Assembly (NCBI GenBank): GCA_025526915.1
Contig: JAHLKH010000264.1
Location: 1 to 28,667, forward strand
DNA from: Entophlyctis helioformis
Lineage: Eukaryota > Chytridiomycota > Chytridiomycetes > Chytridiales > Chytriomycetaceae
Direction of reading: 5' to 3'
DNA length: 28,667 bases
Positions 1-27,315 of this stretch are shown piece after piece. Each line of letters begins with the position of its first letter. The stretch's first letter is position 1. The position numbers and the translations under genes were made by a program. The notes below the pieces were generated by a model, which made no database searches, was not told the origin of the DNA, and worked only from the letters and a program-made list of their open reading frames with translations.

Positions 1-470
1 TGCGCGCAGACGATCCTTCAAAAGGCCACGGCAAACCCGGACCTGGCGACTCTCGTCTCACTGGCGAGCCAGTTCCCAGCCATCGTCGGCGTGCTGAACG
101 GCACTGAGCAAATCACCGTGTTCGCTCCGACGAACGCAGCGTTCGTCAAGCTAAAGACCGAGTTCCCCGCTCTGTATGCCGCCGTCACGGCCGACGCAAA
201 GCTGCTCGCCGGCGTTCTCTCGTGTAAGTCATTTGCAGCCGCTCTTCACCACTGCCATAGCTGTATGTGCATTGACCGATAAGCCATTCGCTCCTCGCTG
301 GACATCCATCATCAGACCATGTCGTCAACGGCATCTTCGACCCCAAAACGGCTGCTCCTTACAGCTTCGTCAAGACCTACCAAGGCGGCATCCTTCGCGC
401 GGTAGTCTCTGGCAGTGACATCTCGCTTGGCTTTGGTTCCTTCACGTCCAAGGTCGCCAGCACAGTGCCA

Positions 471-505
<35 letters not shown>

Positions 506-1265
506 CCTTATGCCGCCGGCTGGCGCATTGGCGATGCTCGTTGGTCGCGTAAAGAGCAGGCTTGGCGATGTGATCACCAAGATCAACTTTGCCAAGGTGA
601 TCGATACCCTCAAGGACGTGACCATCTTTGCACCTCAAGACACGGCGTTTGAGGAGTTTGACGACTACGTTTCCAAGAACAAGATTGCCATCACGCCCGC
701 GATCCTCTCTGCCATCCTCGACAGCCACATCTTCAAGGGCATCATCTACTCGACAAACATCACCACCACCCCCATCAAGGGCGTCAGCGCGTTCAATGGT
801 CGCACGGCGGATATCTACCTCAACGGCTCGACCATCATGGTCAAGGGCGGCGGCAACACGGTCCCCGTCGTCGTCTCACAGGTTGACAACCTGATTGACG
901 TTGGCGTTGTCCACATTGTCGAAAGCCTGATCCTCCCAGCCAACTTTGCAGAGATTCCTGCCGGTCCAGACGTGCTCGGCATCTACCTCCCTTCGTTTGA
1001 CCCCATCACCACGACCGACGGCAAGCCTTACACGCCTGGTACCGATGGCAAGCCAAACACGCCCACCACTAGCGACAAGCCGTCCTTGCCCAACGATTAC
1101 AAGCCCTACACGTCGCAAGCATCGACCAACGACAACGCAGACAAGGACACCGGTAGCTACATCAAGGACGATCAGATCGTGTCCGGCTCCAATCCATCAG
1201 CAATGCTTGCCAGTGCCGGCGTTGCCATCGCTGCTGCTGTCGCTGCCGTTTTGCCCGTCTTCTAA
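1..1265 (+). CDS. Fasciclin (FAS1) domain cell-surface protein, 5' end cut by the window edge
   Basis: The coding sequence is already open at base 1. Exon 1 is 1-223, a phase-1 intron is 224-315 (gtaagt...cag) and exon 2 is 316-1265. Two FAS1 domains are visible. The first has ITVFAPTNAAF and, across the intron, the YH motif followed by a VIHVIDSVLMPP end. The second has VTIFAPQDTAFEEF and ends VVHIVESLILP. A Thr/Pro/Lys-rich linker and a hydrophobic Ala/Val-rich C-terminus after a Ser/Asn site suggest a GPI anchor. FAS1 proteins act in adhesion at the cell surface. About 20 N-terminal residues (the signal peptide) should lie off the left edge, judging from the paralogue at 6379-7572, whose mature part begins with a similar AQT segment. 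The family call is firm; the ligand is unknown. Confidence 0.9.
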
Positions 1266-1380: not shown

Positions 1381-2661
1381 TCAACCAGCTAATGGGTCTG
1401 GATCCTCAGACTCTTTCCCGGCAGATTGACCTTTCTGGGACTTGCGGATACGGTCAATGATCATCGTGAGCAACACCGTCTCGCCGTACAGATGGATGCC
1501 GGCCAGTGCGAAGCTGATTTGCCGCAATGCCGTGCGGTTCAGGAGAATGTCGACATCTGACGATCCAAACGTTGCATACGACGCGAGGAACGCGATGCTC
1601 GTCAGCATGTCGATGATCAACAGTCCCAGCACCCACATTATGATGTCGAGCATGACTTGCTGCTGCTCTCTCTGGTTGTTTTGGCTGAGCCGATTGAAGC
1701 GCTTTTTGGCTGTGCGAGTTGGATTGAGATGGCTGGTGGCAGGAACGCTTGGCTGGGCGATCGTTGGCAATGGCGGCTCTGCCGTCGGAGATGTGCTGTC
1801 TGAAAACTCGTGGGCCATTATGCTACTGGCGCCTTGACTTGTTTCCGGACTAAAGGCTTCCATCATTTTGACCATGTGCCTGCGGACGTGGTACACAATG
1901 AAGATGGTCTGGAAGAGACCATTGAATGCAACGAGCATCGCCATCAGTCCTGGCCCAAACGAAGTGAGCTTTGTCCGAGTTTATTTGATCCCATTGTCAT
2001 GTGTCAGTCGCATCGAAGAAGCATGCAGCGTCAGAGGCAGGCATCACACAATGCGGAAGCGTACCAGTGATTTCCAGCTGGATCCGTCCTGAATCGGAAA
2101 GGCGACGCCCTCGACATAATTGAATGAGCACAGGACGATGTTGAGCGTGATCATGCCTGCATACAACTGCTTGCGGTACTGCGGGCCAAGTACCGACGGC
2201 AGCATGAGACCTCTTGAGAACACCAGCTGGATCTCGATTTGGACGAGTACAAGAGCCAGAATCGATACGCCATATGTCCAGTTGCGTGCGACCAGAAACA
2301 AGGCGGTGTCGTCTGTGTCGGTGTAGATGAAGGATGCCTCGGCCAGCTGCATCAGCGTGCCAACGATGTTGACGAGCAGCAGGCCGGCTGTCATGGCTGT
2401 CCATGAGCGTTTTTGGCCACGCCGCACGTAGTGGATCGATCCAGCACCGCAGCAGAAGAAGGCAAGGATACCGTTGAGCAGGCCAATGACCGCCAGTGGC
2501 TTTGAAAAGATCAGGCTCGGTGGGATGCGAAGCATCTTTGGTTCCTGGGTAACACCAGAGGCATTGTTTGGCTTTTTGAATGCCAACATTGCCGGATTGC
2601 GCGAGATCTGGATGGGCACAAAGGCTGACAGTTGACGGCACGTTCGCAAATCCGCGATCAT
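1381..2661 (-). CDS. Seven-transmembrane protein of unknown family, GPCR-like topology
   Basis: Two exons: 2065-2661 and 1381-1968. The 96-nt intron starts gtacgc and ends aaag; the AAG acceptor is the only one that keeps phase. The product is about 394 residues with the most upstream ATG. I count seven hydrophobic helices at roughly residues 55-79, 87-113, 127-150, 166-189, 202-226, 305-333 and 348-372. The loop between helices 5 and 6 is about 75 residues, Ser/Thr/Pro-rich and ending in basic residues, as in the third intracellular loop of many G-protein-coupled receptors. The C-tail is short and charged. I recognise no family signature, so receptor function is inference from topology alone. 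Start is uncertain: the ATG at 2661 overlaps the ATG of the opposite gene, and in-frame ATGs at 2589 or 2535 would leave room for a promoter without losing a helix. Confidence 0.72.
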
Positions 2662-4018
2662 GGCGGGCGGAGCCACCCCAGGCGTGGACACGAGCGCTGG
2701 GCTTGGCTCGGGCGATACGAAGCAGGCTCAGAGCGTCGCCACTGGCACCGACGCCATCAAAGAGCCGCCCTTGCCGCACGGACACAGTCGATGGGATTCG
2801 CTTCCCGTCGAGCTTCACCTGCACATCTTTCTGTTCGTTGGCCTGCTCACACGATTCATCAACGGGCTGCTGACGTGGCCACTGGATGACATTGAGGTGG
2901 GGCAGCTCTGGCTGGACACCATCCAGCTCGATTGGGCCGGGGACCTGCGACTGCTGCCCGTTGCCGAGATTGGCTTTTCGGCGTTCATCCAAACCCGCTC
3001 GCGGTCCATGTACCACCGCCTCTGCAGCCGGCTTGCCGACCAAAGCAGCCAGGAGGCGTACGCAATGTGGGCCGGCTTTCTCAACAACTACGACTCTGGC
3101 GCCTTCCCCCGCGGCCTGGCAAGCGTCCTCGACATCGGCTCGCATCTGCGACACGTTCCGATGCGCCAACAGTGGTTGGATCTCGTTGATTTCTCAGCTC
3201 CGATCGCTCTTGCATGGATGGCCATCCTGTTCGATCACGCCGATCTTCTCATCCATCTGTCGCAGGATCTGATGGTTGTTGATCTTGCCCGCTTCCGGCA
3301 CCTGTCGTGGCCGTCTGGCCAGCGGTTCCATGCGATGGACATGGCTGCCGAGCGAGGCCATCTGCGCATCGTGCAGCTGCTCCACGAGGCCGGCAGCCCT
3401 GCCTGCTCCACTCGCGCGATGGACATGGCCGCCTCCAACGGCCATCTCGACGTTGTGCAGTTCCTCCACACGCACCGCAGGGAAGGATGCTCCACCAAGG
3501 CGATGGACTGGGCGAGCGCAAACGGCCATCTCCATGTCGTGATGTGGCTCCACGCCAACCGTACAGAGGGATGCACCACGCGTGGGATGAACTGGGCGGC
3601 CCAGAATGGGCATCTGCACGTTGTTCAGTGGCTCCACACCAACCGGACGGAGGGATGCACCACAGGGGCGATGGACTGGGCAGCCGGCGGCGGTCATCTT
3701 CACGTCCTCCAGTGGCTCCATGCCAACCGCAGCGAAGGATGCACCACATATGCGATGGACATGGCCTCAGGCAATGGGCATCTGGACGTTCTCAAGTGGC
3801 TGAATGCCCATCGCGTTGAAGGATGCTCGCCAGACGCCATCACATGGGCCGCCCTCGTTGGAAACCTCGACGTTGTCGTCTTCCTTGTCGACCACTGCGC
3901 ACAGGTCCCGTCGTCCGCCTTGATCGACGCTGTTGTCGCAGACAACAAGCACCAGCCCGTCATTGACTATCTCCTGGCATACCGCCGCCGCCATGACACA
4001 GCAGCCATCCACACCTAA
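2660..4018 (+). CDS. Ankyrin-repeat protein with an F-box-like N-terminus
   Basis: Single-exon frame of 452 residues ending in TAA. Around residues 44-70 there is an F-box-like stretch (WDSLPVELHLHIFLFV). From about residue 225 run eight or so ankyrin-type repeats of about 30-33 residues, with cores such as AMDWAAGGGHLHVLQWLH and a recurring EGCTT spacer. The middle copies are nearly identical. This style of repeat is common in large families of chytrids, oomycetes and amoeba-infecting giant viruses. An F-box plus ankyrin layout suggests a substrate adaptor for an SCF ubiquitin ligase, but the F-box call is weak and the target is unknown. The ATG at 2660 is the first in frame and overlaps the divergent start at 2661. 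Confidence 0.85.
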   Translation: MAGGATPGVDTSAGLGSGDTKQAQSVATGTDAIKEPPLPHGHSRWDSLPVELHLHIFLFVGLLTRFINGLLTWPLDDIEVGQLWLDTIQLDWAGDLRLLPVAEIGFSAFIQTRSRSMYHRLCSRLADQSSQEAYAMWAGFLNNYDSGAFPRGLASVLDIGSHLRHVPMRQQWLDLVDFSAPIALAWMAILFDHADLLIHLSQDLMVVDLARFRHLSWPSGQRFHAMDMAAERGHLRIVQLLHEAGSPACSTRAMDMAASNGHLDVVQFLHTHRREGCSTKAMDWASANGHLHVVMWLHANRTEGCTTRGMNWAAQNGHLHVVQWLHTNRTEGCTTGAMDWAAGGGHLHVLQWLHANRSEGCTTYAMDMASGNGHLDVLKWLNAHRVEGCSPDAITWAALVGNLDVVVFLVDHCAQVPSSALIDAVVADNKHQPVIDYLLAYRRRHDTAAIHT

Positions 4019-6378: not shown

Positions 6379-7572
6379 CTAGAAGAGGAGAGCAGCGGCA
6401 GCGGCAGCGACGGCACCGACGGCACCGGCAACAACCTTGTTGGCGCCAGAGTAGATGGGCTCGTCCTTGTAGTAAGGAGCAGGCGAGGGCGAGGCAGCGG
6501 GCTTGTCGTCCTTCTTGGGGGTGTAGGGAGCAGCAGGGGCAGTGAACGAGGGCAGGTTGATGCCGTTCTTGCCAGAGCCAGCAACAATCTTGGCGAGGTC
6601 GGGGAGGATGACCGTGTCGACAACGTGCACAACACCGCCGGCAACGAGGACATCGGCAACGACAACCTTGGCAGGCGTGGTGTTGCCGGCACCCTTGACC
6701 GTGACGTCGGTGCCGTTCAGAGCCACATCAACGCTGGCGCCATTGTAGGCAGTGGTGGCCTTGGCAGCCTTGGCCTTGACGACATCGGTCGAGTAGACGG
6801 TGCCCTTGACAATGTGGTAGTTGAGGACGGCCGACAGGATCGAGTCGGTGATGGTCAGGTTGTTCTTGGCAGCAAACGCGTTGAGGTCGTCGAAAGCCTT
6901 GTTGGTGGGAGCAAAGATGGTCACGTCCTTGAGGCCGTCAACAGTCGAGATGAAGTCGACCTTGGTGAGAGCGGCAGCGAGCGAGGTGAGGCCAGCGGCG
7001 ACGGCGGTGGACGACGCGCTGCCGGGGGGAGTGAGGACAGTGTCGACGATGTGGACGACACCGTTGGAGGCGGGGGCAGACGCAGCAACCTTGGAGGTGC
7101 CGAGACCGAAAGCGAGGGTCACACCCTCCTTGGCGACATCAGCGCGGAGGGTCGAGCCCTGGGCGGTCTTGACAAAGTTGCGGGCAGCAGCCTTCGTGGG
7201 GTCAAAGACGGTGCCGGCAAGGACGTGGTCTGATGAGATCGGAGCGGCGGGTTAGCGCGGTGCACAAATCACAGCCACAGTTGCACTCGACTCACAGGTC
7301 AGGACGGTCTCGAGGAGCTTGGCATCCTCGGTGACGGTCTTGAAGAGAGCAGGCGACTCGGTCGACAGCTTGGTGAAGGCGGCGTTGGTGGGAGCAAACA
7401 CCGTGATGGGGGTGGTGCCGTTGAGGACGGACACGATGCCGGGGTACTTGGCAGCGAGCGACACGAGCGTCGAGAAGTCCTTGTTGCCGGCGGCAATCTG
7501 GAGTGCGGTCTGGGCCGAGGCAGACGAGACAAGGAGGGCAGCGGCGGCAAAGAGCGAGGTCGAGAACTGCAT
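6379..7572 (-). CDS. GPI-anchored fasciclin (FAS1) domain protein
   Basis: Two exons: 7296-7572 and 6379-7229. The phase-1 intron (gtgagt...cag) splits the Tyr of the YH motif. The product is 375 residues. I start it at ATG 7572 because the frame then opens with a clean signal peptide (MQFSTSLFAAAALLVSSASA); the more upstream in-frame ATG adds a polar stretch ahead of it. Two FAS1 domains follow, with ITVFAPTNAAF and VTIFAPTNKAFDDL boxes and GVVHIVDTVLTPP and GVVHVVDTVILPD ends. A Pro/Lys-rich linker leads to a small-residue hydrophobic tail (AVGAVAAAAAALLF) typical of a GPI signal. It is the closest relative of the partial gene at the left edge: the linker and tail layout is the same. Confidence 0.93.
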
Positions 7573-7642: not shown

Positions 7643-8309
7643 GTCGCTGCCGTGGTAGACTGGGCAGTGGCCCACGATCCCGAAATTCGCCGCGCGATCT
7701 AACGGCGCATTGCGGATATTTGCTTTGTGGGACACACTGCCCGGCACCGTTCCAACTTTTTGGCCGCTTCCGAGAGGGGACCCGAGCGCCTTCTGGGCTG
7801 CCGGCTCTGCGCCTCCAGGGCTCCGGCAGCGTGCGGTATTTCTCTCCGTGAGGCTACCAGCTGCGCCAGTTCCTTGGCCTGCTGCGTCGCCAGCCCTTGC
7901 CAGCCCTCGCCAGTCCGTCTGCCACAGGGGCTGACGGCCAAGCGCCAGCGCTGGTGCGTGTGCCAGGCCGACTGACCAGACAACGGGCTGTGCACTTGCG
8001 TGCCAGTGTCGACAGATGACACCACCTTGAGCAACATGCACCCCACAGCCTCATCACGCGACTGTGTGCATCGCAAGCTTCGTCTCGATGGTGGCGTGAT
8101 TTGGGACCGATTCACGCCGATGCGGGGCAATTGTTGGCCGTCATTCCCGCGAGTTCAACGAGGGGGGGGGGTAATTGATTTCGTTCCCATAGAAAACCTT
8201 GCGCCGGCACCTGATTGGCCGGCTGGTTTGCCTCGAATTTTGTTCAATTTGGCATCCAATTTTTAGACTTTTTGAATCCAATTTCATATTCTTGTCCGGA
8301 ATTCCCCAG
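7643..8309. other. Intergenic region upstream of the FAS1 gene
   Basis: About 670 bases. The left part is GC-rich, with several short overlapping open frames on both strands that show no domain or consistent splicing. Around 8160-8170 there is a run of ten G. From about 8228 to 8300 it turns AT-rich, which fits the 3' untranslated end of the minus-strand gene that stops at 8310. I see no gene of its own. Confidence 0.4.
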
Positions 8310-9698
8310 TCACTCTGAGCAGTCTGCAGGCGATGCCTTCTCAAGTCGTGGTCGCTTTGACGCTGGCTTGTGGTCTGCTGAGCCTGTCCAAGGGGCAGCA
8401 GTTGGTTGCGTGTTGGTAGTGTCACGAAGGACTGTCGTGCCATTGCCTGTTGCAGCTGTTGGCCTTCTGCGTCCAGGCGGCGCACTTGTGTGTGCTGCTG
8501 GGGCTGCCTGCTGCAATGTCCGAACGACCGACGTCACAGGCGACACAGACGCACTGGCATCTGCTGCTGCTGGTATCTTCCGCTTGCTTGTCGCTCCACG
8601 GCGGCTGGCTGTTGGCGTGGCAGCTGCATCAACGGTTGGCTGTCCATGCTCGCCTGCAAGGTCCTAGCCGTCGTCGAGATTGTCAAGGCACACAGTGTCA
8701 ACAGAGTCGCAACTGTTGGCAGCCATCACACAAGAGGCAGACGGGCTCACCAACGAGGAGGTGGATGGATCACTCGGCGTATCGTTGAGCTGCTGCGTAT
8801 CATCGAGCTGCTGTAAGGCATCGCGCTTGGATTGGTCTGACTTTGAGAACTGTCGAGGCGATACACACAGAATGCCTGCAGCAATTCTGCTCACTCATGT
8901 CAACCTCTGTCCTGGCTGCCTTTGTGTACACAGCAAGGTCACAGCGACAAGTGTCTTTGCAACAGCCAGCAGCGCAGATGATCAACATGTCTTGCATTCA
9001 AGGCACGATGCCGTCGCACCCCGTCATCCACAGCCAACAGCCATACCCACCTGACTTGTCAGCATGCCCGCGAATGCAATGACGAGCAGCATGCACAGTC
9101 TCGGTCAACAACAAAGGGCTGATCGACTGCAGGCTGCAAAGAACAAGTCGTCTCAGACCTGCTGGCGACTGAAGTCAACAGCATCCAAAGTCGGCAATGA
9201 AGACACCGTGCCCAAGGAGAAACTCGCCTTGCACCATCATCACAAGAAAGTGCGACACATTTGTGCGATCTGGGATGACTACTCGGTCAAAGATTGGAGG
9301 GTTGTCATGGTGTTGGTTGGCAATCTCTGTTCCAAGGAGCCAGATAGCGATATGGCGCATCTCAGTACTGCTCAGAGCACAAAGGAGGGCTGGACATCAG
9401 GTTGGAGGAATTCACACGGATGAGATCTAGCAATTCCATGCGCACTTGGTGATTCCAACTGCGGCATGGACCCTATGAACAAGGCTGGATGGGCAACCAG
9501 TGCTGTGGCTGCCATGCCAGCACCCAAACCCTGTTGAGCATCAAGCAAGTCTTTGGTTGCCCATTCAACCAAGGCATCCAGGTCTGCTGTGGCGCGGTTG
9601 TCTCTGCAGCACACAGAAGAGTGCCGGCTGGATGCAAACAGGTGCCAGTTGAGACTGCCATAGGCAGGAGAGCCCTTGGTGTGCCGCCCAGTGGCCAT
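8310..9698 (-). CDS. Probable spliced gene, unknown function
   Basis: I do not recognise this gene; the model rests on reading frames and splice sites. The last exon, 8310-8663, is open for 117 residues, Ala/Thr/Pro-rich, ending with a basic KRPRLEK patch. It joins in phase across an 87-nt intron (8664-8750, gtgagc...ctag) to a Ser/Asp/Gln-rich exon upstream. That intron removes the only stop in a long open frame. At the 5' side, exon 9418-9698 joins across a 50-nt intron (9368-9417, gtgtga...gcag) to a segment containing RHIAIWLLGTEI and FDRVVIPDRTNVSHF. Exons between about 8900 and 9200 are unresolved. The ATG at 9698 is a guess. A nuclear, partly disordered protein is possible. It could also be a decayed gene. 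Confidence 0.4.
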
Positions 9699-9991
9699 CA
9701 AGCCATACCCTCCAAGACGGGCTGCGTGCCAGCCTCGATGTGGAGACGATCTGCATCAACAGCATCGCTGCTCAGAGTGGCATGGCATTCCAGCCAAGAA
9801 GAATGAAGTTGAAATCAAACCAGGCGTCAACCTGAACAAAAGTCAATGCGAGCCAGCCAGCCAGTCAGCGGCATGTGCATGGTCGTGGACGAGAACACAC
9901 GCCTCGCAACAGATCCATGCCACCAGATCCACAACAAACATGGCTGTACTGGTGGAAGAGGCGGCATTGTTGACCTTTTCATAGACTTCTG

Positions 9992-10023
9992 ATTGGTTGG
10001 CTGTTTGGTCAAGCCATAAAAGG
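9992..10023 (+). promoter_or_regulatory. Possible promoter: inverted CCAAT box and TATA-like site
   Basis: ATTGG (CCAAT on the other strand) at 9992-9996 is followed 20 nt later by ATAAAAGG at 10016-10023. This is a plausible core promoter for the plus-strand gene that begins near 10494, with the minisatellite then lying in its 5' leader. No transcript evidence is available. Confidence 0.35.
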
Positions 10024-10084
10024 CGAGTTTGCTCTTTGCTGTGTTTTGCTCAGGTCACTGAACAGGTGAGAGACAAGCACCACC

Positions 10085-10490
10085 CGATCACTCGACGCAC
10101 GGGCACGCACGGACACGCACGGACACGCACAGACACGCACGGACACGCAGGATCGCAGGCAGGATCGCAGGCAGGATCGCAGGCAGGATCGCAGGCAGGA
10201 TCGCACGCAGGATCGCAGGCAGGATCGCAGGCAAGACTGCACGGACACGCAGGATTGCTTGCAGGATCGCAGGATCGCAGGCACGAGCGCAGGATCGCAG
10301 GCACACAGGCACGAGCGCAAGATCGTAGGCAAACAGGCACGGCCACGACCGCACACACAATCGCTCGCAGGCACGATTGCACGAGCACGCACAATCGCAC
10401 AATCGCACAAACAAACAAACAAACGGTCACACACGGATACGCAGGCACGGGCACGCAGGCGAGACCGCACGATCGCAGACACAATTGCAC
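10085..10490 (+). repeat. Minisatellite of 10-12 nt units
   Basis: The left part repeats CACGGACACG-type decamers. The middle, about 10148-10232, is a tandem array of ggatcgcaggca (12 nt, about seven copies, one with a cac variant). The right part is a degenerate mix of gatcgcaggcac, cacaatcgcac and aaac units. All unit lengths in the clean part are multiples of three, so one frame reads GSQA repeated, but there is no other sign of coding. It lies immediately upstream of the ATG at 10494. Confidence 0.85.
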
Positions 10491-10493
10491 GAC

Positions 10494-13400
10494 ATGGGGC
10501 TCCCTATGCTTGTTTTGTGGTTGGGGAAGCATGGCGGCAGCTGTGTACTCTTGATCGGTATGCTTGTGTCCACGTTCGTGAGGCTTGTGCTAGACAGCGC
10601 ATGGCCATCACGAGATCCAAGCGACGCCAACACGGCCACACCAAGCAACCCTGGTATTCTTCATGTCGATGTGATGAGCGTGTTCTTTCCGCACTTCTCG
10701 GGGGCAGCAGGGCCCGATTACCCAGTATCCACAGCTGGGTGGATACCGATCCTCAAGCCTGTCATCACATCGTTCATTGCCGAGTACGGTGCTGAGCACG
10801 CCTATATCTTTCACGTTGACGGCAAGTACGGCGATACCGGTATCAAGTCCGCTCACAAGGGCCGTGCCCTACAAGTCCTGCGTTCAGTGGTGTAGTACTG
10901 GGCCGCCAGACGGGCTTGCCGGCTGGTCTCGGGGCAGTGAGTATGCACGCAGGGGAACGGCGGGCAGACGACTACTTCATTGGGAGGCAGCACAGACCTG
11001 GTCTCGGGGCAGTGAGTATGCACGCAGGGGAACGGCGGGCAGACGACTGCAAGAACGGGGGAAACCAGAGCGGCCGGTGCGGCCCGACAATGTCTGTCCG
11101 GTCATGTGGGTCACGTGGATCACGTGGATCACGTGACCGCGACCGAGCATCCGTTACAAGTGGGCACTATTCTGCGCTGCCTTTACAGACGGTGCATAGG
11201 CAAAGGATCTTGGCACTTGAAGCGGTACGTACACTTCTTTGTGCCTCCATGTGGCGATTCTAACATTTGGTTGACGATCCAGGAAAGAGAAGCGTGCACT
11301 GCGACTTTCGTTCACCATCACACATGATGACAAGAGGCTCATCAAAGAGGCGATCGCGGAGATCCTTGGCTCTGGGTCTCGACACAAGGCCTGTTGGTGT
11401 AATCATGAGGCCGACGTCTGTATTGCCCGCCGCGCAGCCCTCCATGCAAGCGAGCCAAGGTATAGATTGCCATGACATCTGTCTGCTATGATTGACGTCT
11501 TACAGTCTTTGTCTCGCATCAGCGGCATTCCCATGGCCGTCATTTGTAATGACTCGGATCTCATTGCGCACTGCGCTGGACGCTGCCCGGTCATCATGAC
11601 GTCTAAGCGGAAGGGGGAGGCCAAAAGCCTGCGGTCTTTTAACCATCCAGGTATCGCGTCCGTTGCATCGGCCCTTGACGTCTATGTCTTCCCTGATGTT
11701 TGCCAGTTTGTGGCTTCGTTTGGCAAGACCGACTATCATGATTGTTACAGCCGTGGTGCGTGCGATTCCTGTCTTGATGCTCTGTATTGCCATCCATGCT
11801 ACAATGCCGACTAACTCACGTTACCATTCACATTGCCTGGAAGGCCATTGCACGGCCGTCAACACCACCAACAAGTACGTTGAGGAGGCGGCAAGCAAGC
11901 GGAATATCTCGCCGGAGGAGTTCTGCATCCTACTGCACAAACCAAGGATCGCAAAGAATTTCAGGAAATACGTTCGAAATGCTTACGCCGAGGAGATGTG
12001 GACAATCGGAGGCGAGGACCTTGCAAAGTCGTTCCTTAACGCCTTCTCCGTTTTCGTGTACCACGATGAGTCGGGGGCATTGGCCAATGCATTCAAACCT
12101 CCAACTGGCTCCAGCAGCCCATCTGGCAACGCACCTGTGCATAGGCAAGCTATTGCGTGACTGGCTATGGGATGGTGGCATGGACGCGTTTGCATGCATA
12201 GCGCCATACTGACCATCCATTTCCGCATGGCAATGACAACAGCACGGCTGTTGACGCGACTGCCACGCCTCAAGCAAGGTATGCATGCACGCATGTGATC
12301 TCTTGGTGTGTCTCGCATGACTGATTCATCATTCCTGTCTTTGATGTCATTGTTGGATCACGATGCAGCTGTCAGCTACACGCCGGTTGCCTCCTGATCC
12401 ACCCCAAGTCGCAGCAAGGCAACCCCGATCCCAACATTGTGCACCTGACGCAGAAGGATATCGACTGGCACATCAAGAAGATTGTCAAGACAAGGCAAAT
12501 GGATGCTACCTTTCTCAATGTCAAGCGATGTCCGATTGCATTTGACTGCATTGTCAAGCACGTGCCAGGTTACCTCGCTTGCAACCCCGATGGAGTCGCA
12601 GGCCGTGACATTCTGGCGACGATCAGCAGGACGGCAAGTTTGCAACTTTTAGAGATTGCCTGCGAGAAGTCTCAAGCAGCGGTAGTGCGCGCAGAGCTTG
12701 GTCGACTTGATCGGTTTGTTTGGGACACACATGTACGTTATGGCATGACTTGGATGCATGTGCATCTCTCACCTTAAACTGTCTAACTCAATCCACTGCC
12801 CGTTGGACAGGGCGCCGCTCGGAGGATGACGAATCAGTTGGGCAAGATTCTGGATCCTAAAGGTTCATCCTTCCAGAATCTGTCAACACCGCGTACATTT
12901 GGCTTGCATTGGAATGACTCGACGCCATGTACTGACAGCAGCCATTTTGCCGAATGTGCTATTCCAGAACCAAAACCGCAGCCAGGCATGCAGCAAGTCA
13001 AGCAAAAGCCCAAGCAGCAAGGCAAGGTCATCAACCAAGCTGATCTCCATGAATTCTCGGCCAAGAACCGCAAAAAGGCCAGAAAAAAGCTCAAGGCCCT
13101 GGGACGCATCATGGATGACCAATCAGTGACGCTTGTCAAGCAGCTGAAAGAGGCCACCAAGATGCTATTTTTGATCATCAATCAACCCTCGGTGCGTCTT
13201 CATCTTGACTGTCGGTGTGTGCATGCAATGATTTGGTGCAATCACTCATTTCTCCAATTGGCAGGCGGCTCCATCTAGAAAGCGGCACAAGCGGCGTAAG
13301 CGACGACAGCCATCTGTTGACGCTCAGGCGGAAGAAGCACAGCCCGTGGTCTTTTCTCTCAATCGACATTTAGACACCAAGACGACGGTTAGTTCTGATG

Positions 13401-13896
13401 TACCATTGGCGCTTGCGTATGCATTGTGTGCACTCGGAATGCATTGCTCATGCTGCATCCAACCTCCACAGCCACGACTTCAATTCACAAAGAAGCAGGA
13501 GGCCGCGCTCATGAAGAGAAGCACATTGCAAGCTGCAAAGGCCGCGACACTGAAGGCCATCAAGGCCAACAAGGGAAAGTCGAGCCGGTTTGCCCGCAGT
13601 AGTTTGCCTGGTGGCTCGAGACATGGGTAAGTGATGTATGCTGTGCCATTAGCCTTGAGTGCTCTTGCTGACATGCGTGTTTTGGCAGAATCGTGCTTCG
13701 CTCACGATGGGCACTACATCTGCTGATTCAAAAGCTGGGTCGCACTGTTACAGGGCCACTCATGTCGCTCTCTGCGGCGATCGGCAACAATGATCAACAA
13801 ACGGCAGAGCAAGCAACCAATCAACCTGCTGTGGATGCGCCAGATCAGCCTGCCGTGGACAAGCCTGATCATCGTGGTGCGAGAGTGGCGCTTAAG
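10494..13896 (+). CDS. XPG/FEN1-like 5' nuclease, N-terminal half of an XPG-Fanzor reading frame
   Basis: The ATG at 10494 opens MGLPMLVLWLGKHGG, like the MG-x-x-x-L start of Rad2/XPG nucleases. The acidic residues of the family follow in order: HVD (Asp codon 10668-10670), FHVDG (Asp 10818-10820), HEAD (Glu 11407, Asp 11413), NDSDL (Asp 11551 and 11557) and GKTDY (Asp 11731-11733). These hold the two metal ions in FEN1/EXO1. Exons that fit in phase are 11283-11459, 11523-11755, 11844-12136, 12202-12278, 12369-12732, 12811-13191, 13265-13387, 13472-13626 and 13689-13896. The part from 10871 to 11282 is not resolved. After the nuclease comes a Lys/Arg-rich region (about 12980-13620), perhaps DNA-binding. 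No stop separates this from the Fanzor half. Family known: structure-specific DNA flap or exonuclease. Role here is inference. Confidence 0.72.
10923..11048 (+). repeat. Perfect 51-bp direct repeat
   Basis: Copies at 10923-10973 and 10998-11048 are identical, separated by 24 nt (period 75). Each contains cagtgagtatg, a strong splice-donor-like sequence. The repeat lies in the part of the XPG-Fanzor gene where exon structure is unresolved. Confidence 0.9.
11112..11135. promoter_or_regulatory. Three CACGTG (E-box) palindromes in tandem
   Basis: CACGTG occurs at 11112-11117, 11121-11126 and 11130-11135, as a 9-nt repeat tcacgtgga. CACGTG is the core site of basic helix-loop-helix factors such as fungal Cbf1/Pho4. 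Whether it acts as a promoter inside the gene or is simply a short tandem repeat cannot be told here. Confidence 0.4.
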
Positions 13897-13972
13897 GTAC
13901 GATTTAGGATTGCCATTCTGCCTGCATGCATGGCTTTGCATGGACTGACTCAGAGGTTGGCGTGGTGCGCAG

Positions 13973-16900
13973 AAAATGTTGTTGGGCAATCCAGGAAGCG
14001 CCAAGGTCTATGGCATTGAAGCCAGGAAGACGCCAAAGACATGGACGTGGCGTCTGATCATTGAGGACATGTTTGCAAAGGTGTACTCGTTCATCGTCGG
14101 TCTTCGGCATGCTGGGTTTGTCGTGATTGGTGCCATCGCCGAAGAGCTACTCGATCTCGACGCGGATGCACCACTCCCGCCCAAGTACCACGTCTACAGG
14201 TGGCTTGATGACAAGACGACGCGGTATTGTTTCTGGACTTCAAGGGCATCGACAACCTCGGCGACCATGCCAGCATCGACGGCCTCGGCGGCGTGACCAA
14301 GGCGGAGCTCTTCTCGGGTCGATTCACCCTCGGAAAGGACATCACTGCCCGCCTCATGTACGGCTCGAGTTTGTACAATCACAAGAGCAAGAAGCCTCGG
14401 TATGGCCATCCGGTGCAACTGGCGACGGGTACAAGACTCGAGCGTGTTATGTTTGAGAAGGTCGACAAGCCCAAGACAGCCGAGGAGTCAAAGGACGCAG
14501 AGCAGCATGAGGATGCTGAGGACGCCGAGGATGCCGACATTCACGAGCAGCCTGACGATCACGAGCAACCTGACGAGCCTCAGCAGCCTGATCAGCCTGC
14601 AGCAGCAGCACCAACAGTGCCGACATCCAACCAGCTGTTCACGGCACAGCACCTCTGGCGGCGAGACAACCGTGGCCTGCATCTTTCGCCACCTGTCGTT
14701 CATTTTCACCGGCAAGGAGATGGCCAAGCTGCTGCATGACATGGAGACGATCAATGCATGGGTCGTCACTGTCATGCAGTTGATGATCCACCGCGCATGG
14801 ACACGCAAGATGGTGCAGGCCAGTGCAGACAAGATGTACGCGGACAAGTATGGCGCGCAGCAGGCCGACACAATCCAGACGGACATGCAGGAGGACGTCA
14901 CGTATCAGGCAGCTCTACCATACCGCCTGGACAACACTCTCTGCGGGAGCGCAACAGATGACATCTTCAACAACCTCGCCAGAGAGGTGAGCACCATTCT
15001 CGCGCGGCACTACATTGCAAGTCAGGTCGACCTGGCGGTTGGTGCAGCCATCAAGCTTGCTCCCGGAATGTCTCGCGAGCAGGCGAAAGAGTTGGTTCAA
15101 TCCCTGTTCGAGGAAGCCGATGCCGCCAAGGCTGCTGCTGCCAAAGCCACCAAGGCTGCTGCTGCCAAAGCCACCGCGCCAAGACCATCGGCGGCCAAGA
15201 GAGGGAGACAAACAAGTGTGGCGTCAAGCACTGAGGACGCCGCGTCAAGCCCGACGCAACCCAAGAGGGCAAGGCGCAAGAGTACAGCGCCAAACCCATC
15301 GTCGGCCGGTCTTGACACCACCCCTCCCGCAACAAGCCACGAGACACCGCGTCAAGCTCATCGTCGGCCACTGACAAGAGCGACGCGACCAAGAAGGCAC
15401 GCGGCAAGAAGCCGGCCGCCAAGGACGCCGCAGGGAACAAGAGCGCTGTGGTGACCCCGCCAGCATTGCACAAGCTCGTGGCCATCATACGCAACATGTC
15501 GCTGTCGACTGTTGGACGCTTCAAGCAGCTGCGCGATCTCGCTGGAAGAGAGAGCATCAAGCTCTGTCCTCAAGCGGCAAGTCGTGATCCCTTTGTTCTT
15601 ATCACCGAGACCGTCCTCTTCTGGGCGGTTATGGGGCTGAAAAGGGATCGCACCAGCAAGTCACAAGATCCCATCTTGCGAGCATTGAGATCGGAGCTTC
15701 TTGCTGCCATAAGTCAGTCACACTGCCTGTCTATGCCATCTTTTTATGATTTGATGCTAACAATCCACTCTTCTCAAAGAGCCTGGCTGGCTTCTCAAAA
15801 AGCTTAAATGGAAAGACTCGGAGCTTAAGTTGCCCAATGACAAGATCGAGAAGGCGTTCAGTTCAAGTGACGAGCTGTGCGTCATGGATCTCCTGCTTCC
15901 GGGTCTTGCCTCCGATACACGGCGCTATCAAACGCCAGCACAGGCCAAGTTGCAGATTGACCCAGCCGACACCGTGGAAGAGGCCAGAGCAACTCCTGAT
16001 GTGACACAAGAAGCCAAGGCTGACGATCTTCAACTGGACGACAAGCAGTCGGCGGACTTGATCAAGGCCAAGGTTGATGCTCTTCCTCAAGTGCTACCAA
16101 CCAAGTCGGTCAGATTTGGCAGCATCAAGACCGACGGGAAGAGTGTCTTTCAAACTGTTCTGGAGTTTCGCACAAACCGTCCAAAGTCACCTCGCAGTAT
16201 GTGGCGTGCTTGGATGCTGTGGTGCACGCATTGATTCTGACCACTGCCTTGCTCTGCAGATCCCAACGCGGCGACTTCAGACGAGCAGTCCAGTCACGTT
16301 GAGGATGCTGATGACTCTGATTCTGACGATGATTCAGATGATGACTTGGATGACGATGACTTGGATGATGGCTTGGATGATGGCTTGGACGTCACATGTG
16401 AGTTGCTGTGCCAATCCAGACGGTACTTGTTGTCCACACCAACTGACATGCCATCCACAGCCGCCAATCCAGCCGACTCATCAGCCACCAAGCCATACAC
16501 ACCCAATCCTGTAAGCCACTTGCATGCCAACCTCGCGCATTGGTGCACATGCATTGCACATTCCTCACTCATGCCATGGCATGACAGGTCAAGTGCAACT
16601 TTTACGCCTCGCAGCGACTGCCCGATGTTGCTGATGCCAACAAGCTGCTCGCCGACAAGGACTTTGTGCGGTTGTCAGCTTTGATTGGGGCGAGCGGTAC
16701 CTGTTTGGCGCGTCCAGCATGCTGGTCAATGTCAAGGAGGAGACATACACGCTCGAGGCCAACTACGTGCTCTCCTCTGGCGTATTTCATGCTGAGCGTG
16801 ACCTTCAGCGGTGGTATGCATGCAATGACTCTGCCACGCGCACTCTTGACCAGATCAACTCACAGTGCCTGCCTCTTGTGCCAGGCTCAACAATCGATAT

Positions 16901-17992
16901 GCCAAGGCAGCCGACGTCCACGAGGCCATTGCATTCAAGACAGCAAAGCATGCCGATCCAAACGCCACAGCAGGCGAGAGAGCCTTTTGGGATCTGCGCT
17001 GCCATGCGTACTGCACGCCATTCCTGAATGCACGGGTACGTTTTCTCTGTTTCTGGATGTCCATTGACATGGCCGCCATGCTGCTTGATTGCCTGCTGAT
17101 TGCACTGGATGGCATGGCATGGCATGGCATTCCACAGAAGGTCAAGGACAAGCGGTTTGCCATGCGCTGCAAGCGCATGTCTGATCGCGGACAGGCTCTT
17201 GAGGGCATCATGAAGCTGGCAGGATCGACCACTAGATATCGCGCATCTCGTGCATCTCAAGGCCTCCCTGTCAGCAACCCAGAGAAGGACATTCCCGTTG
17301 TGTGGGCATTTGGCATCGACTTTACAGGCCAAGGTGGCCGGCACGCTGTGTTTGAGAAGTTTCTCATCAGGCATCTGCGGTCGTCTGGATATGCCTATGT
17401 GCGTCTGATGCCACGCTGTCCATCCATCCATCTGTGCACCAACTGACACACAATCATGCACACCACAGATCTACCGCTGCAACGAGAACCTGACCAGCCA
17501 GATGTGCCCGCAGTGCAAGCAGCGGATCCCATACGAGAACCGCACCAACCTGCGACGCTACGAGTGCACAGACTGCGAGACTGTCTACCACCGCGATGTG
17601 CTTGGAGCCACCAACATCGGAATGGTCGCACTGGAGCATCTGCTCTTTGGACAACGGCCGCTCTACTTGACACACACGCCAGTCGATCCGCCTGTCGTCC
17701 AGCAGCCTCCAGCACCAGATCCGCCTGTCGTCCAGCAGCGTTCTAGACACGCCATCAAGCGACGTCTAGAACCAGATCCACCTGTGACCAGCAGCGCCCA
17801 AGACGTGCCATCAAGCGGCCTCCAGCACCGGATCCGCCAGTCGTCCAGCAGCCTCCAGCACCGGATCCGCCTGTCGACCAGCAGCGTCCAACACGCAGAC
17901 AGCGTGCCAGCAAGTCAGGTGCCACTCCAAATGCTCTGACTTCCAGCACAACCACCAACACTTTGAATCGGGGCACCTCCCGATCGACCTAA
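13973..17992 (+). CDS. Fanzor (eukaryotic TnpB-like) RuvC nuclease, C-terminal half, frame-disrupted
   Basis: Exons: 13973-15712, 15780-16196, 16260-16396, 16461-16510, 16588-16813, 16885-17035, 17138-17398 and 17469 to the end. The RuvC fold is assembled from FDWGER (RuvC-I Asp 16683-16685), NENLTSQMC (RuvC-II Glu 17484-17486) and HRDVLGATNI (RuvC-III Asp 17595-17597). A CPQC...CTDC zinc ribbon (Cys codons 17505, 17514, 17565, 17574) lies between II and III, as in TnpB and Fanzor. Fanzors are RNA-guided DNA nucleases carried by eukaryotic transposons. Extra parts are a histone-tail-like Lys/Ala stretch (15120-15450), an acidic Asp run (16305-16391) and a C-terminal PPV repeat. Small frame changes are needed near 14212-14224, 14640-14670, 15320-15360, 16640-16680 and at 17785. 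As written it ends at TGA 17939; the corrected frame ends at TAA 17992. It may be a pseudogene, or the indels may be sequence errors. Confidence 0.78.
17685..17885 (+). repeat. Degenerate tandem repeat encoding DPPVVQQ-type units in the Fanzor C-tail
   Basis: Units of the form gatccgcctgtcgtccagcag followed by cctccagcac or a basic spacer recur about five times. They encode DPPVVQQ/DPPVDQQ with PPAP or Arg-rich spacers. The third unit (around 17776-17795) reads cctgtgacc where the last unit (17870-17880) reads cctgtcgacc. That single missing C shifts the frame. Confidence 0.8.
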
Positions 17993-18258
17993 CGGGTCAC
18001 TTATCACATCATTGTTCAAACAATGGTGCAAGGTGAGCATCTCGCTGGTGTGCCACGCCCGCCTGTCGTCGCATGCTCGTTGCTGACTCGAACCTTCCAT
18101 CGTGTGATGTGCTTGCTTGCATTCGACGCCTCTCGGGTCGAATCCAATTCCAAAACGCTTGGTAATTGTTTGAATGTCGGGCCATTTGCCGGCGGTTTGC
18201 CGGCATTCCCTCGCCCTATTGCCCACCCCTTGAGTTCAACCCCAGCAATCGCGCTCAC
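17993..18258. other. Intergenic region between the Fanzor frame and IFT81, with a small perfect hairpin
   Basis: No coding frame is supported. At 18010-18025 there is a perfect 7-bp inverted repeat, CATTGTT-ca-AACAATG. In known Fanzor and TnpB loci the guide RNA comes from the region next to the nuclease gene, so this stretch is where one would look. It must also hold the promoter of IFT81. No guide RNA structure can be claimed from sequence alone. Confidence 0.35.
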
Positions 18259-21200
18259 ATGGCATCTGCATCCGACCTGAAACTCGTGGTCGAGCGGCTC
18301 GCAGCGCCACCGTTTTCAAAGACATGGAGCGTCATCCAGCTGCACGACGAGGTCACGCCCGTCCAGCTGCTGCAGTGCGTGAGCGACATTGTCTCGCACA
18401 TCGACCAGGGGAATCCGCTGTCGCCGCACCGCAACTTTGACCTGCGCAACGAGCTGCCCGAAGACACGGTCGCGAGGCTGTCCGAGTTTCTGCGCATGCT
18501 CAAGCTGAAGGAGGCCGTGGCCGACATGTAAGTGTCGTGCCGGTGTTTCCTGTTCTTCTGCTTCTGCTGCCTATGCTCTTGCATGCCCCTCCGCTGGCCC
18601 ACTCTGGCCGTCTCTGCCTTGTCTCGCCCAAACATGCGTGCCTTTATGCCCAATAACAACATTCGCGTCCATGTCGCGTCGGCCGCGTTGCTGCTGCGTG
18701 ACATCTCTACAGCGACGGCTTTCGCCAGCGTCTCTTTGAGCTCGACCGCATGGTCTTGCTCTCGGTCCTGCACTTTCTGCTCAAAGATCTCGCCATCCAC
18801 AAGAAACGCGCATACCTGGCCGTGTTCCTGTCCATGCCCGATGTCCCACCCGAGTTTGGCCAAGACGAAGGTGGGCCAGACTGCGCCAGATCTTGCAAAC
18901 AGAAACTGTTGCTCACACGGCACGCTCTCTGCGCCAGTCGTTCTGGACCTGTCGCAGCAGATCGAAGGCCTTCAGGAAGAGTTCAAGAATGCGCACAAGT
19001 GGCTCGAAGGTCTCAAGCAATCTGGTAATGACCATCGCATGTCCTGGTGGACAGCCAGCCCAACGGCCAACCTCCCTCCATCTGTCTCTGTCTCATCTCA
19101 CCACCTCCCTAGGCAACAATGCGTCCAATCTCAAGCGCGAGATCCAGCAGATGGAAGAAGAGAAGCAGCAGGTCTTTAACAAGGTCTCACGTCTCAAGAA
19201 GAAAGTCGACGGTGTTGTAAGTGGATGCATTGGCGTCTTTGCTGGACCGACCAGACAGCCAACTTTGTTCTTTATCATTTGATGCCATACCATGCCAGGC
19301 CAATCGCGACCAGTGGCTGCAGGCGGCCAAAAATCTGCGCATGGAGCAGCAGAACGAAGCGGCACTGGCAGATCGGATCCGCGACCAGCGGCTTCAGGTC
19401 GCATCTGCCGACAAGAAGCTCAACTTGGCTCTGCAGGCACTCAAAGACGCCAAGGTGGCTGCGTCTCGTGCCGTTTTGGTGCCATTGTATGCCTTTTCTG
19501 CTGCTGACCACGACTGACTGGCAACGTTGACTCGGACGCCAAGGCCAATCTCGTGAGCTCCAGCCCAGACGCATTCTTTGCCAAGATGCAGGAAGAGAAC
19601 AAGATGAACCGGTTCTTGGCCGAAGATAACCTGCCAAAGAGCGTCGAAGAGACGCGACAGAAGCTGCGCGATCTCGGCAGCATTCTTGCCGAGCCTGCGA
19701 TGAGCGAGAACGATCTTGCGACCATCGAAAAGGAAATCACCGAGACCAACCAGCTGATTGCGCAGCTTGCCGAGAAGAAGATGGCCAAATCCAAGTCAGT
19801 CGTCTGATGCCGTCGCTCGAATGTTTGCATGCTTCAGTATCCTCGTGCGACTCACCCAATGGGACGGCAATGCCGCCATCCATGGCGCGGATCAGCACAA
19901 GCGATGCCAACCTGGCTCTGTTCCGCCAGCAGGCGGCCATCATCTCGCGCAAAAAGGAAGGAGCCGTGCAGAAGCTCGCGATCCTCACCGACGAGCTCGC
20001 GCAGCTCAGTCTCGACTGGGACAAGAAGCAAGAGGCCATCAAGGGCTCGTCTGGCACAAAGATGCTCAAGGGCGAGGATTTCAAGCGCTACGTGTCGGAG
20101 CTGCGTGGCAAGTCCACCAACTACAAGAGGAAAAAGGCCGAGCTGTCTGAGCTCATGGCCGAGTACGGCATTCTGCAAAGAACAGAAGAGGTGGGGGTGG
20201 CTGTGCGAGCGGAAATGGAATGTGCGTGGACACTCAACGGCTTTGTGCGATGGACAGATCTTGACGGCCAAGGCAACGGCGCTTCAGGAAATGATCGATG
20301 CTGTCGAGAAGAAGAGTGGCGTTGTTGGGTTCCATGCTGCGCAGGAGACGCTTGAAAAAGTGAGTGCTAGTCCAATGGCAATCAAGAAAACTGGTGCTGA
20401 TGCGTACTCGGCCAATGCACAGGTTTCCGAGAAGAAGAGCGAGGTTGATGAAGCCAAGGGCAAGACGCTCAACGAGATTTCTGAAATCATCCAGACGCTC
20501 ATGTCGACCATCAATGCAAGTGGCTGCCACGCAGATATGACCATTGCGAGACCTAGCTGTAGATAGGCGACTGGCTGGCTGACTGACTCGGTCTGATTGG
20601 CTGTGAGCAGGACAAGAAAAACATGCTGGCGCCAGTGATCCAGGAGCTGCGTCAACTACGCCAGCAGGCACAAGAGTTGGAGGCCGAGTACATTGAAAAG
20701 AAGCGGCTCTACGATGCCACGATCATTGGCATTGAGAGGTCAGATCTGCAACGCTGGTGGTTTGAATGCAAAGGAGGAGAAGGCGGGAGACTCACGCGAA
20801 CGCTTGGCTGGCCATCACACAGTGAGACGGCAGAGCTCGAGCAGGAGATCAAGTCGAACCGCCAGGACATTGCCAATGACCAGAGCCGCTACCACTACCT
20901 GCAGAGCATGCTTCGGCTGACAGAGATTTCCCAGGACCGAGGTACGGGTTTCGTCTTGTGCGCACGCCTTGCGATCAACACTGCGCTGACGCGCGCAATG
21001 GCGCGATGGCGCGATGACAGTCATGAGCGAGATGAAGGCGTACATTGGCGGCGACGACATGGTCGAGCTGCAGCAAAAGGCGCGTGGCTTCAAGACGTAC
21101 CGCGAGCTGTACAACAAAAAGATTGCCGAGCACGAGCACCAAGTCAAGTCGCTCAAAGAGCAGCAAAAGGACATCAAGGTACGGTGTGATGCCTGCGTGC

Positions 21201-25338: not shown

Positions 25339-25673
25339 GTAAGCCCTCTGCCCCCTCGCCCCCACGCCGCCTGCCGCTGCACACGCTGCGGCTCTGTGTC
25401 CGGCCAGCCGCACCGCTGGCTGCCTTGGGCCGCCTGCCTTGGGCCGCCCGCCCGCCCGCCCTGGCCGCGCCGTCCTGCCAATTTGCTCCCGCCGGCCTTG
25501 TCTGCACGCCAGGTTGGCCGCAACACGCTGCGTCTGGCGTGTGCCGTCCAATGCAAGCCACACTTGTGCCGCCGCTCGCCTCGCCTCCCATTGCACCTGC
25601 AACAGCCGACTGCAAGCTGCAAACTGCAAACTGCCAGCCTGACTGACACTCGCACCCATCGCTACCCTCCCAG

Positions 25674-27315
25674 ATCCCCATCGTGAAGAAGAAGCTGCAG
25701 GCCTTTGTCGGCTTCAACAACCTGCCCCAGCAGTTCCACCGCAAGGCTCTCAAGAAGGGCTTCCAGTTCACGCTCATGGTCGTTGGCGAGTCCGGTCTGG
25801 GCAAGTCTACCCTCATCAACACCCTCTTTGGCTCGACCCTGTACCCTGCAAAGGAGCCCAGAGAGCCTTCGCCCGACACCCCCAAGACCGTCGAGATCGA
25901 GTCCATCAGTGCTGGTAATATCCTGCGGTCCTGTGGCGCTGTGCTCGTCATCTGCTGTTGATCGATCCGCCAGCCAGACTCACGCCCAGTCGTCTGCGGC
26001 TCTAGATCTCGAGGAGAACGGCGTCAAGCTCAAGCTCACTTGCATCGACACCCCTGGATTCGGCGACCTTGTCAACAACGAAGAGAGCTGGCGTCCCATT
26101 CTCGAAAACATCGAGGCTAGATTCGACGCTTTCCTTGAGCAGGAGAACCGCGTCAACCGCAAGAAGATTGTCGACACCCGTGTCCACGCATGTATCTACT
26201 TTATCGCCCCCACTGGCCACAGCCTGCGGCCGCTCGACATTGAGTTCATGAAGCGACTTGCAAACCGCGTCAACCTCGTGCCCGTCATTGCCAAGTCCGA
26301 CACGCTCACCGAGGAGGAGATCAAGGCCTTCAAGGCTCGCGTATGTTGCGCTGCTCGTTGCTGTGATGTGCTGCTGTGCCGCCTGGCCTGATTGCGACTC
26401 CATGGTGGGCTGACTCTGGTATCCTTCTGCTCGTCATGGCCACAGATCCTCGAGGACATTGCCTTCCACAACATTGCCATCTACCAGCCTCCCACCTACG
26501 AGAACGACGACCCCGAGACCATCCAGGAGAACAGAGAAATCAGCGTATGTCCAGCGAGCCGTCTGCCATCCCACCCATTCTGCCGTAGCTGCCATGCTGT
26601 TCCTCACACTCTGCCTCTGGCCATGACGTCGCGTACAGTCCAAGATCCCCTTTGCTGTGGTCGGCTCGGACAAGGAGATTGAGATTGGCGGCAAGAAGGT
26701 CCGCGGCCGCAAGTACCCATGGGGTGTCATTGAGGTTGAGAACGAGGAGCACTGCGACTTTGTCAAGCTGCGCCAAATGCTCATCCGCTCCCACATGGAG
26801 GAGCTCAAGGAGTTTACCAACGAGGTGCTCTACGAGAACTACCGCATGCAAAAGCTTGCCGAGATTGGCCCTATCGACAATGTCGACTCTGGCGTGTAAG
26901 TCTGTGTTTTGCTATGCAGTGCGTCCGCGGTTGTCGGCATGGACTGACACGGCCGACCGACCGACCGACTGGATGGATGGATGGATGGATTGTGCACACT
27001 ATCAACGGCATCAACGGCAACAACGACGACAACGACAACAGCTCGCCCATGTCCAAGTTTGAGCAGGAGCGCCACGCACACGAGCAAAAGATGGCCAAGA
27101 TGGAGGCCGAGATGAAGGCCGTGTTCCAGCAAAAGGTGGCCGAGAAGGAGGCCAAGCTCAAGCAGTCCGAGGACGAGCTCTACGCGCGCCACCGCGAGAT
27201 GAAGGAGCAGCTCGAGCGCCAGCGTCTGGAGCTCGAGGACCGCAAGAAGCGTCTCGAGTCGGGCCGGGCCATCACGGTCGACAAGAGCAAGAAGGGCAAG
27301 GGCCTGTTCAAGTAG
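25674..27315 (+). CDS. Septin, Cdc3/AspB type (first exon not resolved)
   Basis: Exons 25674-25915, 26006-26340, 26446-26544, 26639-26895 and 27042-27315 join in phase. The frame opens after a cag acceptor with no ATG, so a short upstream coding exon is missing, perhaps ending at 25338. The polybasic and [20 protein letters not shown] start is typical of septins. GTPase motifs follow: GESGLGKS (P-loop), DTPGFGD (switch II) and AKSD (G4). The septin-unique element [20 protein letters not shown] comes next, and the C-terminus is a charged coiled coil from about 27050. Similarity to the fungal Cdc3/AspB group is close throughout. Septins polymerise into filaments and rings at the plasma membrane in cytokinesis and morphogenesis; the coiled coil serves pairing with other septins. 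Confidence 0.93.

Follow-up and report, generated by a model that had tools for sequence, protein, structure and literature searches.

Does a single eukaryotic gene encode both an XPG/FEN-like nuclease and a Fanzor-like RuvC nuclease? The question is raised by a locus in the genome of the chytrid Entophlyctis helioformis, within a window that is the whole 28,667 bp of contig C264 (assembly of 29.6 Mb in 482 contigs; other copies of the locus are named here by their contig in that assembly). Fanzors are described as mostly single-nuclease proteins of 600–700 residues, and what they do in transposition is unclear (PMC11423790, PMC10711439). An earlier note, made from the letters of the window, had proposed that the two nucleases share one gene here. 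Our reading, to which we give about even odds (roughly 50%), is that the locus is a broken transposon of ~10 kb with a single predicted gene, comprising an XPG/FEN-fold nuclease, a middle part and a Fanzor-like RuvC nuclease, and that the RuvC part likely cuts, the XPG part trims and host repair then copies or restores the element. The repeat, its ends, the 9-bp duplications at several copies, the coding order, the motifs and the block exchange described below were computed directly.

A high-copy element with inverted termini

Assembly-wide matching showed that the XPG–Fanzor locus belongs to a repeat present in many copies. The DNA of window positions 10490–18000 matches many other sites, with at least 75 aligned pieces (29 candidates scored). 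The zinc ribbon was found at 90–100% identity in at least 150 places (all scored among 258 candidates), and the PF07282 profile likewise gave at least 150 places, all above its cut-off (205 candidates).

The whole copy in the window lies at 8160..18231 (+ strand; ~10.07 kb including a later insertion), with edges at ~8162 on the left and ~18230 on the right. It is flanked by a 9-bp target-site duplication, GAGTTCAAC, whose left member (8151..8159) and right member (18232..18240) are identical; both were read directly and paired by eye. Comparison of copies placed the left terminus, GAGGGGCAGGCAAT in other copies, at 8160..8173 (+), and the right terminus, whose reverse complement in other copies is GAGGGGTGGGCAAT, at 18218..18231 (+). 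The termini are short inverted repeats, the common form pairing at 12 of 14 bases. Among eight copies of the window type read at both ends, an exact 9-bp duplication is present in three (the window, C108 and C22), and C235 matches at 8/9 bases. Weaker flank matches were seen in C95 and C16 (7/9 each) and in C103 and C13 (5/9 each). As a control, flanks were swapped between copies; the best match among 56 swapped pairs was seven bases, reached in three pairs.

A second group of copies (L056, L057 and others) stops 48 bp earlier, at ...AATATCGGGCC. For C10 and C172 of this group, whose right ends correspond to 18183, the duplication and left ends were searched for and not located. Between the left terminus and the first exon, the 5′ region (8174..10493, +) has no recognised domain, none of its 10 scanned open reading frames (ORFs) passing a Pfam cut-off. 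GC-rich tandem repeats with units of 10–28 bp lie at 10095–10341, just 5′ of the first exon.

An XPG/FEN-like part and a Fanzor-like RuvC part

The XPG/FEN-like part occupies 10494..12136 (+), as delimited by alignment, by exon mapping and, in relatives, by a structure model and fold searches. Its exons were mapped to ~10494–10886, 11160–11224, 11283–11460, 11506–11755 and 11844–12136 (+). A five-row alignment, partly hand-assembled, has seven acidic residues invariant in every row (D59, D109, E195, D197, D227, D229 and D287), encoded in the window by codons at 10668, 10818, 11407, 11413, 11551, 11557 and 11731 (+; Glu at 11407, Asp at the others). From the FEN1 positions, we take these to be the metal-binding acidic residues of XPG/FEN nucleases, although FEN1 has a second glutamate where the element has an aspartate. 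The modest-confidence structure model of the XPG part of relatives matches EXO1 and FEN1, and the part is predicted to adopt the FEN/XPG nuclease fold. It resembles FEN1, EXO1 and XPG in this predicted fold and in the seven acidic positions, and differs from them in scoring below Pfam cut-offs, in being borne on a transposon and in being fused to a RuvC part. The XPG_I_2 profile gave E-values of 0.0038–0.038 (13.9–17.2 bits vs. a cut-off of 24.2) in four of five proteins, the XPG_I profile matched no place within the element, and a PDB sequence search with the XPG part returned no relative.

The Fanzor-like part (15801..17939, +), delimited by PF07282 and exon mapping, contains a stretch preceding RuvC-I, then RuvC-I, the displaced glutamate (Ealt), a zinc ribbon (17469–17669) and RuvC-III. 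The RuvC-I aspartate codon, part of a DWG motif, is at 16683..16685 (+; exon mapping and alignment rows), and sequence reading with exon mapping placed the displaced glutamate codon (17484), the ribbon cysteines and the RuvC-III aspartate codon (17595) within 17484..17597 (+). PF07282, the Cas12f1-like TNB profile, was passed at 3.3e-10 (40.4 bits vs. a 26.3 cut-off); NCBIfam TnpB models matched far under their cut-offs. The Bao–Jurka Fanzor motif, D-X(125,275)-[TS][TS]XX-C4-X(5,50)-RD, is present in C298, where X is 188, TSQM stands ahead of the ribbon and five residues precede RD. Ealt is present as a sequence motif, six residues separating the glutamate from the first cysteine in C298. The Fanzor fingerprint is a near exclusive DPG together with a glutamate that precedes the zinc finger by six residues (PMC10711439). 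All six of our alignment rows have DWG instead of DPG. The Fanzor identity proposed earlier therefore stands as regards PF07282 and Ealt and falls short of the strict fingerprint, and we call the RuvC part Fanzor-like.

Compared with Fanzor1 proteins such as SpuFz1 of Spizellomyces punctatus, the element shares the TnpB-type C-terminal motif, the zinc ribbon, the displaced glutamate and a eukaryotic transposon as carrier; it differs in having DWG rather than DPG, and in that its predicted gene also encodes an XPG/FEN-like nuclease. PDB sequence searches with the RuvC part found no relative at E up to 1 or up to 10; the ribbon alone matched a designed RNA-guided nuclease, at E 0.99. The 3′ end has no Rfam match. 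Over 32 copies its fold energy was −31.8, vs. −22.9 (standard deviation 4.4) for 30 column shuffles, with a covariation term near 0. An apparent stand-alone Fanzor ORF on C153 was rejected, being the same element in a chance reading frame.

One gene or two

To join the parts, intron-aware gene models were built for eight copies from codon usage and GT-AG signals. These gave chains of 1515–1750 residues in 15–21 exons of predicted splicing, against the 600–700 residues stated for most Fanzors (PMC11423790). All eight join RuvC-I to the second aspartate pair of the XPG part within a single chain. The C298 and C10 models extend past the zinc ribbon and RuvC-III as far as a stop, and that of C16 reaches the ribbon; those of C298 and C172 begin inside the XPG part. 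Intron positions common to up to seven of the eight models occur across the XPG, middle and RuvC parts. The middle part (12202..15712, +) has no recognised domain and closes with a long exon from ~13973, which is frame-broken in the window copy.

The codon table was initially trained on window exons picked by conservation. In a control run it was taken from three distant copies and starts were left free: six sequences scored 48.0–80.3, against 6.8–9.8 for their reverse strands and at most 8.1 for shuffles (ten each). The model of window positions 10490–16700 had 868 residues in 11 exons and scored 49.0 (reverse strand 7.3; ten shuffles at most 7.5). A homology-boosted gene model was discarded: the introns are conserved at the DNA level, and it fused them into exons. 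The EAD motif of two copies and the C10 stretch following the XPG part were kept from it for the hand-assembled rows.

The two parts are also co-linear across the genome. We hand-merged the listed matches into 118 XPG loci and compared them with 177 ribbon places (150, plus 27 via PF07282) over a range of 3.5–9.5 kb. A ribbon lies downstream on the same strand at 58 of the 118 loci, at 5.0–8.6 kb (median 6.0 kb). As controls, none of the 118 has a ribbon upstream and none has one on the opposite strand.

An alternative, which we consider improbable, is that one transposon carries two adjacent genes, XPG-plus-middle and a separately started Fanzor-like gene, joined by the model alone. The eight annotated E. 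helioformis proteins are fragments of 187–397 residues, existing separately, and a search for a full-length homologue found none among 7992 candidates scored; the RuvC block also recombines as a unit, as described below. Against two genes, conserved blocks at the protein level between the window and C298 tile 10665–17700 with gaps of at most ~100 bp, other than at the insertion in exon 1. In C298 the middle is spanned by an exon of 1636 bp, and common intron positions occur on both sides. The one-gene claim of the earlier note is accordingly favoured by eight of eight models, common introns and 58 of 118 co-linear loci, and disfavoured by the fragmentary annotation and the empty full-length search.

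Other particulars of that note fared differently. Sequence reading and exon mapping confirmed its placement of the XPG motifs, of an open spliced chain and of a zinc ribbon of the Fanzor type. Its nine introns between 11283 and ~14211 are about right, the mapped exons giving nine in C366 and ten in C16 and C298, but the GT...AG borders it cited are not evidence, since the model permits only GT-AG introns. The chain does not start at 11283: relatives put the start at the ATG at 10494, and it had seemed to start later because exon 1 of the window copy contains a 273-bp insertion.

The RuvC block as an exchanged cassette

Copies that are distant over most of their length are alike in a block at 16490..17739 (+), introns included, where copy comparison gave 83–100% identity. 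Relative to the window, C298, C10 and C172 have 38–76% identity to ~16.24 kb and then 83–100% over 16.49–17.74 kb; their five introns between 16397 and 17470 are at 90–100% identity. In C95, C103 and C366 identity rises at ~13.24 kb, from 63–86% to 85–99%. Synonymous divergence (dS) between distant lineages is 1.21–2.59 or saturated in the XPG part and 0.17–0.32 from RuvC-I onward (five pairs). Introns and synonymous sites are thus alike beyond what constraint alone keeps, so recombination or conversion has moved the block, which was swapped as a cassette between lineages. The ratio of nonsynonymous to synonymous divergence (dN/dS) is below 1 in all parts, at 0.15–0.63, for seven non-independent pairs with columns taken from well-aligned stretches.

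A precedent is the Mucor Fanzor family, which has diverse 5′ and near-identical 3′ parts (PMC3627910). The MCi-2 elements of Mucor circinelloides resemble our element in this diversity of 5′ and near-identity of 3′ Fanzor regions; they differ in having duplications of 11–12 bp rather than 9, and the section describing MCi-2 mentions no XPG part (PMC3627910). The 5′ terminal, non-coding stretch of the element, 8300–9725, is at 93–96% identity in several copies despite diverged XPG parts, mirroring the 3′ block.

Proposed function and alternatives

Intact copies are predicted to be catalytically competent. In the mechanism we propose, the RuvC part would cut DNA, perhaps guided by RNA from the 3′ end of the element, and the XPG part would strip flaps or resect 5′ ends after that cut. 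Homologous repair off another copy could then restore or spread the element. Both nucleases would work on the same DNA ends, and the protein would power its own mobility. Repair between non-identical copies would also account for alike ends flanking a diverged middle. A bolder version, which we hold doubtful, is that this is a transposon without a conventional transposase, in which one polypeptide, joining an RNA-guided RuvC to a flap nuclease, powers its own spread by cut-and-copy, and an Ealt/DWG RuvC cassette outside the Fanzor fingerprint hops between lineages while the flap half diverges.

Several observations weigh against our reading. One spliced gene is predicted here from gene models, and such a model may disguise a frame break as an intron; starts of six of the eight were fixed by hand, six skip the EAD motif, two reach RuvC-III, and the best chains with free starts are shorter (619–1239 residues). 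Sixty of the 118 XPG loci have no ribbon partner among the matches listed, though the 3′ part does align in at least one of them, C95. The middle, ~900 residues with no recognised domain, could conceal a transposase. Four of the eight copies read are without a convincing target duplication, and a guide RNA sought at the 3′ ends by folding, covariation and Rfam was not demonstrated. In the profile check that the earlier note had called for, PF07282 exceeded its cut-off and the XPG Pfam models never did. The XPG structure model is itself modest, with a predicted local distance difference test (pLDDT) of 63.2, a predicted template modelling score (pTM) of 0.55 and TM-scores of ~0.3–0.44.

Could mobility come from elsewhere? 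The element may be a passenger, an unrelated transposase acting in trans on its termini while the XPG–RuvC protein contributes to retention or repair only, a role proposed for TnpB and Fanzor in general. We think this unlikely, if with a real chance of being right. Fanzor1 has been described in MuDR-type transposons that make 9-bp duplications yet have no MuDR transposase (PMC3627910), and the 9-bp duplication of that type is present here, three exact and one 8/9 among eight copies. The Mutator-like element (MULE) transposase domain, PF10551, had no match in the assembly in one Pfam search. No DDE domain was found in the scanned model or the 5′-region ORFs, other transposase families not having been searched genome-wide; neither result favours a transposase in trans.

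Academ elements carry an XPG nuclease, and the locus might instead be an Academ-type transposon, with an XPG-bearing transposase and a captured Fanzor-like tail. Nuclease- and helicase-encoding Academ lineages are described, and AcademH makes duplications of 9 or 10 bp, whereas AcademX makes duplications of 3 or 4 bp vs. 9 here (PMC10045372). The 1569-residue C298 model has no helicase domain, unlike AcademH. Relative to Academ, the element is set apart by its RuvC/TNB part, its 9-bp duplications and the lack of a helicase domain among those found, and we rate this origin as quite improbable.

If our reading holds, a Fanzor-like and a FEN/XPG nuclease in one predicted protein would suggest what happens once the cut is made: processing of flaps or ends, which passes the break to host repair. 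A real and active fusion would be of interest to genome engineering as a naturally occurring enzyme with two nucleases. The Ealt/DWG combination would broaden the eukaryotic TnpB family. With an abundant element and diverse copies, the cut-and-trim idea is testable.

Distribution

The protein search with the RuvC part gave three proteins among the matches listed, and that with the XPG profile at least five (7998 candidates scored); all are from E. helioformis. Searches of viral contigs with the RuvC and XPG alignments found no relative. No fused relative outside E. helioformis is thus among the matches listed; the searches relied on shared exact words, and a wider distribution is possible. Within one open-licence literature collection, the combination of Fanzor and XPG is undescribed.

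The window copy and its neighbours

The insertion in exon 1 is a later, short one (273 bp, ~10887..11159, +), missing at this place in C16, C108 and C112. Relative to C16, the predicted exons also have five frame-changing indels, near 13863, 14232, 14557, 15346 and 16670. With these and the insertion, the window copy is broken, a relic incapable of the proposed cutting and trimming. Pieces related to the ~270-bp insertion repeat occur in other copies, within a different exon in C108, and the repeat resembles a small mobile element, one that inserts into the transposon.

An IFT81-like gene (PF18383, 1.2e-12) has its start codon at 18259, 27 bp past the right end of the transposon, which may therefore lie within the promoter or 5′ untranslated region of that gene. 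Elsewhere on the contig are two fasciclin-domain genes (PF02469) at 276–1262 (+) and 6379–7251 (−), an ankyrin-repeat ORF at 2636–4015 (+) and a septin exon at 25647–25958 (+).

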